Below, one piece after another: positions 33,567-35,540 of a DNA stretch of 35,554 nucleotides (position 1 is the first letter of the stretch; each line of letters begins with the position of its first letter). Made by a program: the position numbers and the translations under genes. The notes below the pieces were generated by a model. It saw nothing but the letters and a program-made list of their open reading frames with translations. It was not told where the DNA came from and searched no databases. The stretch is taken from assembly GCA_001775555.1 (NCBI GenBank), contig MEXE01000017.1, positions 5,699 through 41,252 on the forward strand, read 5' to 3'. The DNA is from Candidatus Amesbacteria bacterium RBG_19FT_COMBO_48_16 (GTDB taxonomy: Bacteria; Patescibacteriota; Microgenomatia; CAZETR01; Amesbacteraceae).

Positions 33567-34532
33567 ATGGACTCCCCTGTTACAGATTCTAAACCCAAAG
33601 CCTTATTACCCTACTTTGACGATTTCCTGCTTTTTTTGAAGACCCAAAACTATTCCGAAGAAACTTTGTATAACTATGAGCGGGATCTGCGAATGCTGAT
33701 TAATTTTGCGACGGAGGAAAAATTGCGGTTTGAGGACTTGAATAAGCAAATCATAAACAGATTCAAAGCATATCTTATCAGCCGGGATAGAAAACAGCCG
33801 TCTACGGGGCTTACAGCGGTTCGCAAACTCGAACCCCGGAGCGTAAACAGGGTTTTGTCGGCAACCAGGACTTATCTGCGATATTTGATTGACATAGACA
33901 AACCGGTACCGATTCCGCCGGATGCGATAAAAATGGTAAAGACGGACAAGAAGCATCCGCAAGTGGCGGAATTGTCTGAATTGATTAAGTTAATAGAATC
34001 GCCGGTAAGACTCGAGAAAGACGAATTGGTGGGAATAAGAAACCGGGCGATGCTGGAAGTGTTGTTGTCTTCCGGGATGCGGATTTCGGAACTGGTCTCC
34101 CTGAACAAAAACCAGTTGGACGGAAGCGGCCGGCTATTTATCCGGGGTAAAGGCCGGAAAGAACGGTTTGTATATTTAACCGATCGGGCAACTTTTTGGG
34201 TGAACCAATATATAACCCGAAGGAAAGATAACGGACCGGCTATGTTTGTGCCTCTCCGCGGCAGCCGGGCCGGCAAAACCACGAGGCGGATTTCCACCAA
34301 TTATCTGCAGGCCAAAATCAAGGAATACCGGGAGAAATTGCTGATTAATGTACCCACGTCGGCACACAGCCTGCGCCACGGATTTGCTACCTATCTTGCC
34401 GAATCCGGAGCCAATCCGGCGGCAATCCAGGTATTATTGGGTCATGAAAGCCTGGATACAACGACCAGATATGTGCACGCATCGGATAAGTTTGCAGAAG
34501 AGACGCACCGCAAGTATCACCCGGTTAAGTAA
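33567..34532 (+). CDS. Tyrosine recombinase, XerC/XerD-like
   Basis: Seen: N-terminal SAM-like core-binding domain (FDDFLLFLKTQNYSEETLYNYERDL, about 17-41) and catalytic domain with Arg172 (SSGMRISEL), Lys195 (RGKGRKERF), His267-x-x-Arg270 (AHSLRHGFA), His293 (LLGHESLDTT) and nucleophile Tyr302 (RYVHA). All catalytic residues intact; 321 aa is slightly longer than XerC/D (about 298). Role: chromosome dimer resolution or integration. It lacks the signs of a mobile island around it, so a housekeeping Xer role is favoured. Confidence 0.93.
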   Translation: MDSPVTDSKPKALLPYFDDFLLFLKTQNYSEETLYNYERDLRMLINFATEEKLRFEDLNKQIINRFKAYLISRDRKQPSTGLTAVRKLEPRSVNRVLSATRTYLRYLIDIDKPVPIPPDAIKMVKTDKKHPQVAELSELIKLIESPVRLEKDELVGIRNRAMLEVLLSSGMRISELVSLNKNQLDGSGRLFIRGKGRKERFVYLTDRATFWVNQYITRRKDNGPAMFVPLRGSRAGKTTRRISTNYLQAKIKEYREKLLINVPTSAHSLRHGFATYLAESGANPAAIQVLLGHESLDTTTRYVHASDKFAEETHRKYHPVK

Positions 34533-34740
34533 CTGGTCTTTTGGCTTTGAGACCTTTTCCTTGGGACTTTTTAACTGCGATTCGGATTGGTTCTTCGACT
34601 GCTTGAATAATAAGCCTTGTTAACAGTGCTTCTACGGGATTGAGTGGTGTTCTGAATGTATCTGGAAGTTCATCAACTGCGGCTAGATTAATGGGATAGC
34701 CTTCAGGGGAAAAAGTGGTTGATATCTTTTTATCTGACAT
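34525..34740 (-). CDS. Small hypothetical protein
   Basis: 71 aa: SDKKISTTFSPEGYPINLAAVDELPDTF, a helix NPVEALLTRLIIQAVEEPIRIAV and a basic tail KKSQGKGLKAKRPVT. Convergent with the recombinase, overlapping it by 8 nt. On the minus strand TACAAT lies about 14 nt before the ATG. No family recognised; composition is coding-like. Confidence 0.5.
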   Translation of the reverse strand: MSDKKISTTFSPEGYPINLAAVDELPDTFRTPLNPVEALLTRLIIQAVEEPIRIAVKKSQGKGLKAKRPVT

Positions 34741-34827: not shown

Positions 34828-35481
34828 TTAGAGGGTACCGAGGAAGTTCATGATTTCGTCGGCCACGGAGGTGGTGAAATGTCGGTTGACCTGGGTGGCC
34901 TCCACCCACTTGAGCTGTTTGAAATCCCCACCCGCGACTGTTTTTCCGGAAATTATCCTACAATGGTAGTACAGACCAATGATGCGGATTTTTTTGCCGG
35001 GTGAATCGGGAATTAACCGGGCGTGGACCAGAGAGATGACCCTGGCAGTAAGACCGGTTTCCTGACGGATGGTTTTGATAATTTCCGACTCGAAGTTTAG
35101 GGAGTTGAATTTTCCGGAAGGAAATGTCCAATGCAAATCCCGAATATGCGTGTCGGTACTTTTGCGCAGACCTATTAATACCCTGGATTTTTTGTTGATG
35201 ATAGAGATGCCCACGACCAAGGTGGGTTTGGGACGGGTTTGAGAGAGGAGCTGATAATACAACCTGAGAATTTTATTCACATCCGCATTGTCAAGATAAA
35301 GTTCCTTGGCAGCGGTTTGTCTGGATGCGGCTTTTTCACCTTTGGTAGATATGACGAAGAAATTTATCATTTCCCTGAGGATTTGTGAGCGGGATTTCCC
35401 TGTCTTGGTTTGGAGGTTGTTAAGAACAATATCCATTTCTTTAGGTAAAGAAAAGGCGGTGATAAGCTTTTTTACAGGCAT
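34828..35481 (-). CDS. Ribbon-helix-helix domain fused to a degenerate Nudix domain
   Basis: Seen: residues 5-44 (KLITAFSLPKEMDIVLNNL, then GKSRSQILREMINFF) form an RHH DNA-binding domain; residues 86-215 a Nudix fold (TLVVGISIINKKSRVLIGLRK, HWTFPSGKF, KWVEATQV). The Nudix box at 123-144 is degenerate: the REUxEE core reads KTIRQE, so most metal-binding glutamates are gone and hydrolysis is doubtful. By analogy with NrtR (Nudix plus winged helix) it could be a ligand-sensing repressor. An 8-bp inverted repeat (35482-35523) spans its promoter. 217 aa. Confidence 0.8.
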   Translation of the reverse strand: MPVKKLITAFSLPKEMDIVLNNLQTKTGKSRSQILREMINFFVISTKGEKAASRQTAAKELYLDNADVNKILRLYYQLLSQTRPKPTLVVGISIINKKSRVLIGLRKSTDTHIRDLHWTFPSGKFNSLNFESEIIKTIRQETGLTARVISLVHARLIPDSPGKKIRIIGLYYHCRIISGKTVAGGDFKQLKWVEATQVNRHFTTSVADEIMNFLGTL

Positions 35482-35523
35482 AGTTATTAATATATATAAA
35501 ATATTATAAATATTATAATAACT
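35482..35523. promoter_or_regulatory. Inverted repeat over the RHH-Nudix promoter (candidate operator)
   Basis: AGTTATTA (35482-35489) and TAATAACT (35516-35523) are perfect inverted copies, 26 bp apart, spanning from the base next to the start codon to the -10 box. The interior is almost pure A/T with further TATTATAA-type strings. Confidence 0.5.
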
Positions 35524-35540
35524 AATTTAATTTTCGTCAA
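35512..35540 (-). promoter_or_regulatory. Promoter of the RHH-Nudix gene
   Basis: On the minus strand TTGACG (35535-35540), 17 nt, TATAAT (35512-35517). Near-consensus; a 5' UTR of about 24 nt follows. Confidence 0.8.

Follow-up and report, generated by a model that had tools for sequence, protein, structure and literature searches.

The RHH-Nudix Fusion Gene and Its Product

The window, i.e., the whole stretch of 35,554 nucleotides that was analysed, lies at a contig end in the genome of Candidatus Amesbacteria bacterium RBG_19FT_COMBO_48_16, which amounts to 0.91 Mb and is 90% complete. Close to the end of the window, an open reading frame called on the minus strand (34828..35481, with an ATG start at 35481-35479) encodes a protein of 217 aa, where an N-terminal RHH (CopG/MetJ-type) DNA-binding domain is fused to a Nudix domain. 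The gene is confirmed as real, and its start and full length are kept in four relatives upon alignment. The RHH domain (residues 10-42; 35356..35454, minus strand) matches the Pfam model PF01402 (RHH_1) with 22.0 bits for a cut-off of 20.5, and the Nudix domain (residues 87-203; 34873..35223, minus strand), which extends to the C-terminus, matches PF00293 (NUDIX) with 22.6 bits for a cut-off of 21.1, i.e., by a modest margin in both cases; the two models are matched by 5/5 full-length members of the family. As such, the N-terminal RHH domain read by an earlier note on this DNA is borne out, and the misprediction envisaged there as grounds for dismissing it is contradicted by the score of the window protein, which exceeds the curated cut-off, and by the match in all five members.

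When compared with the PDB, a profile of the RHH-Nudix family reached EndoAI, ORF56 and CopG-type regulators with weak E-values, and the closest solved structures to the Nudix part were active MutT-type pyrophosphohydrolases. The structure model of the window protein, computed as a monomer, is poor (mean pLDDT of 48.5); helices are predicted at residues 14-27 and 31-46, as expected for an RHH domain, with no strand called and a block pLDDT of 31-70 in this region. Of note, a 71-aa ORF without family match (34525-34740, minus strand) lies 3' of the fusion gene and overlaps the end of xerC.

Distribution and Phylogeny

The search for full-length members covered 14 family, 374 class and 380 phylum genomes, together with 8 genomes of the class of G477 and 50 of the family of G253; outside the phylum, coverage consisted of pattern scans, which pick up close relatives. 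Besides the window protein, four full-length members were found in three genera, one in another class, namely in the genomes G013 (64% identity to the window protein), G009 (63%), G253 (39%; another family of the same class) and G477 (35%; another class), whilst G008 holds a C-terminal stub of 23 aa at a contig end with 74% identity. The distribution of the fusion is patchy, as it occurs in one of the 50 genomes of the family of G253 and in one of the 8 genomes of the class of G477, and is missing from the genus-mate G001 in the family genome search. Sequence searches in phages, plasmids and viral contigs returned no match to the fusion, and a mobile or viral origin was rejected on these grounds.

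In a tree of Nudix domains, the five fusions form one clade (support 96/88), and four other Nudix proteins come out as its nearest neighbour, with weak support (83/81). The standalone relatives L040-L042 and L045 keep REUxxE, the second-last glutamate being already lost. Judging from this one tree, the box was probably already decaying when the fusion arose, and its decay took two routes. Between close members, dN/dS ranges from 0.11 to 0.18, with dS near saturation, which suggests that the fusion protein is kept by purifying selection. Of note, the last box glutamate is replaced by Lys in the neighbour set (L037, L038, L039 and L017), which makes it another line of Patescibacteria Nudix proteins with a degenerate box, where three proteins are complete and devoid of an RHH domain and one is cut by a contig end.

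Degeneration of the Nudix Box

The Nudix box of the window protein, delineated from the alignment of the five members, spans residues 128-142 (35056..35100, minus strand), its positions being counted back from G143 on the canonical G-X5-E-X7-REUXEE-X-G. At residues 136-141, REUxEE is replaced by K136 T137 I138 R139 Q140 E141, just as the earlier note had read it, and the preceding box glutamate is also gone (L128). Respective to the window protein, G013, G009, G253 and G477, in this order, the R15 position is occupied by K, N, K, K and E, the E16 position by T, T, T, K and K, and the E19 position by Q, N, D, E and N; the first box glutamate is a Leu in 5/5 members and the E20 position, i.e., the metal-ligand glutamate (E141 in the window protein), remains a glutamate in 5/5. 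The box of active hydrolases (GX5EX7REUXEEXGU) is absent from all five members, the first E and E16 being lost. Intact boxes in close homologs, which the same note had held to be incompatible with its proposal, were thus not encountered, the boxes of the closest homologs being degenerate as well. Since five members of one clade have lost the same two glutamates, the degenerate box is a conserved trait of the fusion and no local accident, and the loss at the E16 position is fixed in the fusion clade. This position is that of the general base in MutT, where losing the catalytic-base glutamate lowers activity by orders of magnitude. In the Nudix domain of the fusion, catalysis has presumably been lost.

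Outside the box, the residues R106, D110, W118, F120, P121, R155, P158-D159, Y171, C174 and F202-T203 of the Nudix domain do not vary among the members, although these share no more than 35-64% identity with the window protein. This is as expected if a binding pocket were retained, a pocket argued from conservation with positions placed via the general Nudix fold.

The invariance of the last box glutamate would also suit a DNA-tethered enzyme, where the Nudix domain would hydrolyse a nucleotide via this glutamate together with a substitute base, the RHH domain only localising the protein or ensuring autoregulation. Along the same line, the nearest solved relatives are the active MutT-type enzymes mentioned above, not NrtR, and the four standalone relatives retain REUxxE despite the loss of the second-last glutamate. 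As the catalytic base is replaced by Thr or Lys and the first box glutamate by Leu in each of the five members, however, such an enzyme appears unlikely.

Promoter Region and Candidate Operators

Upstream of the fusion gene, a -35 element (TTGACG, 35535..35540, minus strand) and a -10 element (TATAAT, 35512..35517, minus strand) separated by a 17-nt spacer are predicted from reading the sequence, and TTGACA- or TTGATT-like elements are similarly placed in the upstream regions of the relatives. Of note, in the fusion-gene promoters on L032 and L033, which belong to G009 and G013, about 10 nt separate the predicted -10 element from the ATG, suggesting leaderless transcripts.

The inverted repeat put forward in the earlier note (35481..35524, with no strand) is indeed present and overlaps the predicted -10 element, with perfect arms of 9 bp, namely TAGTTATTA (35481-35489) and TAATAACTA (35516-35524), which extend to 22-nt arms with 82% complementarity, but it does not stand clearly above chance, as a perfect inverted repeat of at least 9 bp arises in 24% of 1000 dinucleotide shuffles of this stretch with 8% G+C. 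The 44-nt imperfect palindrome was reached by 3/1000 shuffles, having been chosen post hoc. No such palindrome is found in the upstream regions of the relatives, and a site search in the 0.91-Mb genome returned a single occurrence, so that looking for further copies, as the note had advised, disclosed no regulon members. Being compatible with chance, not conserved and single-copy, the palindrome was rejected as evidence for an operator.

Direct repeats with a 10-bp period lie over the -10/start region in three of the five members, namely G009, G253 and G477, with z values for lag-10 autocorrelation of 3.8, 2.6 and 2.9, respectively, against a 99th percentile of 1.9 in 134 controls; in the promoter of G477, for instance, TACTATGTT occurs twice with a 10-bp step. 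The same value is only 0.4 in the window promoter and 0.3 in G013. When lags 4-21 are compared, lag 10 ranks highest (Stouffer 4.55), followed by lag 20 (3.22), lag 10 having been chosen after viewing these 18 lags, i.e., seen before tested. The lag-10 sum over the five members, among which G009 and G013 are close kin, was reached by 0/200,000 resamples from the controls, which are 134 upstream regions from the fetched loci, with starts set at the first ATG of the ORF and perhaps not all promoters; a smaller first control set, including the family's own genes, gave a P of ~0.001. In the window, a perfect 9-bp tandem direct repeat (two copies of TTATAATAT; 35501..35518, minus strand) sits over the -10 element and makes for a weak operator candidate, the lag-9 match of this promoter being reached by 2% of shuffles. 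As operator candidates, the 10-bp direct repeats of the relatives are preferable to the palindrome.

Searches for a regulon with the window palindrome, the G477 repeats and the G009/G013 repeats retrieved only the gene's own promoter at the stringency used, and no regulon is proposed because no operator-like site occurs elsewhere in the genomes at this stringency. Operator-like sites confined to the fusion gene itself would fit autoregulation without ligand sensing, where the RHH domain would hold expression constant and the Nudix domain would act as a dimerisation or protein-partner module, and so would the standalone sister clade with another degenerate box, as if a non-catalytic role had been adopted. 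Going by the general fold, though, the invariant residues fall at ligand-pocket positions of Nudix proteins, beyond the surface alone, and this explanation is considered distinctly unlikely.

Gene Neighbourhood

A gene for a XerC-type recombinase adjoins the fusion gene in convergent orientation in the window, G013 and G009; in G008, three genes (MFS-like, large AAA protein and VWA-type, named by eye) stand between the fusion stub and xerC, and in G253 and G477 the neighbours are others and xerC is not adjacent. No neighbour is conserved across the three families carrying the fusion and, since neighbours differ between families, no conserved target emerges. Among the neighbouring ORFs inspected by eye, the upstream side of the window being beyond the contig end, no NAD or pentose gene was recognised.

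The adjacency of xerC within the Amesbacteria family, together with its adjacent or near location in four genomes, raises the question of a toxin-antitoxin-type or mobile-element accessory, the RHH part being antitoxin-like and the Nudix domain a partner or a toxin remnant. RHH domains are common in antitoxins, the weak reach of the profile to EndoAI is in keeping with this, and so is the patchy distribution. Across members, however, no partner ORF overlaps or adjoins the fusion, the searches in phages, plasmids and viral contigs were empty, and xerC is convergent where adjacent and is not adjacent in two of the genomes, so that this explanation is highly improbable.

In G009 and G013, a divergent ATP-grasp gene lies next to the fusion. 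It was rejected as a target because most genomes of the family carry the ATP-grasp pair while lacking the fusion, so that the two form no conserved pair; ATP-grasp matches occur in 12/14 family genomes, with none found in the incomplete genome of the window. Of note, two tandem D-Ala-D-Ala-ligase-like ATP-grasp genes are followed by a C39-peptidase-like ORF, as named by eye (G009 L033:3832-5872, L032 and others), and in G013 (L002:428-1341) a frameshift or an assembly error has broken the first of them into a pair of overlapping ORFs.

Proposed Function of the Fusion Protein

The best explanation, with a probability estimated at about 0.6, is an autoregulating RHH repressor with a catalytically dead Nudix domain sensing a ligand. 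The RHH domain would dimerise and grip the DNA over the -10/start region of its own gene, neighbouring dimers occupying half-sites about one helical turn apart, a spacing that is plausible in RHH operators, and the fusion protein would thereby repress its own gene and perhaps the divergent neighbour. Having lost its catalytic glutamates and kept its fold and conserved pocket, the Nudix domain would work as a sensor, where a small-molecule ligand, probably a nucleotide, a sugar-nucleotide or a sugar, would alter DNA binding. What the sequences establish is the domain architecture, a degenerate box conserved across one clade, signs of purifying selection and 10-bp repeats in three of the five promoters, whereas the loss of catalysis, DNA binding, autorepression and ligand sensing are inferred. 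Counting against this reading are the empty search for operator-like sites elsewhere in the genomes at the stringency used, the weak 10-bp periodicity of the window and G013 promoters, the differing neighbours across the three families and the poor structure model. The autoregulated ligand-responsive repressor suggested by the earlier note thus remains the best reading, both of the objections it had foreseen having failed, but the palindrome fails as evidence for it.

In NrtR and AraR, impaired and often inactive Nudix domains are sensors of ADP-ribose, NAD or arabinose, an N-terminal Nudix domain being followed by a C-terminal winged helix in NrtR (PMC4666351, PMC6800001). Like these regulators, the window family combines a degenerate Nudix box with a fused DNA-binding domain; autorepression, which is known in NrtR/AraR, is proposed by analogy. 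Unlike NrtR, the window protein has its RHH domain at the N-terminus and its Nudix domain at the C-terminus, with no winged helix, and while the NrtR operator is palindromic, the candidates in the window family are direct repeats, its palindrome being within chance and unconserved. NrtR adjoins NAD or pentose genes; near the fusion, no NAD gene was recognised among the ORFs read by eye, the upstream side of the window lying past the contig end. With the E-value limit raised to 10, the matches in the PDB still include no NrtR or AraR chain. The fusion would then best be explained as working like NrtR without being NrtR.

More broadly, the chances appear even that Patescibacteria harbour a so far undescribed class of one-component regulators where a Nudix domain, dead before or at the fusion, was turned into the sensing part of an RHH repressor, with an origin independent of NrtR. 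If true, transcription control would have drawn on Nudix folds as sensors on two or more occasions, each time with a DNA-binding domain unrelated to the other, and a concrete ligand-responsive regulator would be at hand in tiny-genome bacteria, where regulation is little studied. Nudix is not known as a partner domain of RHH. A literature search found no description of an RHH-Nudix architecture in openly licensed papers, with which the claim of the earlier note that the architecture is new is consistent.

The window protein resembles CopG/MetJ-type RHH repressors with a fused sensor, such as NikR, in having an N-terminal RHH domain followed by a sensor-like domain, which is an ACT-like nickel domain in NikR and a Nudix domain here. 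With MutT-type Nudix hydrolases, it shares the fold and its best sequence matches but differs from them by the loss of box glutamates and the fusion to an RHH domain.
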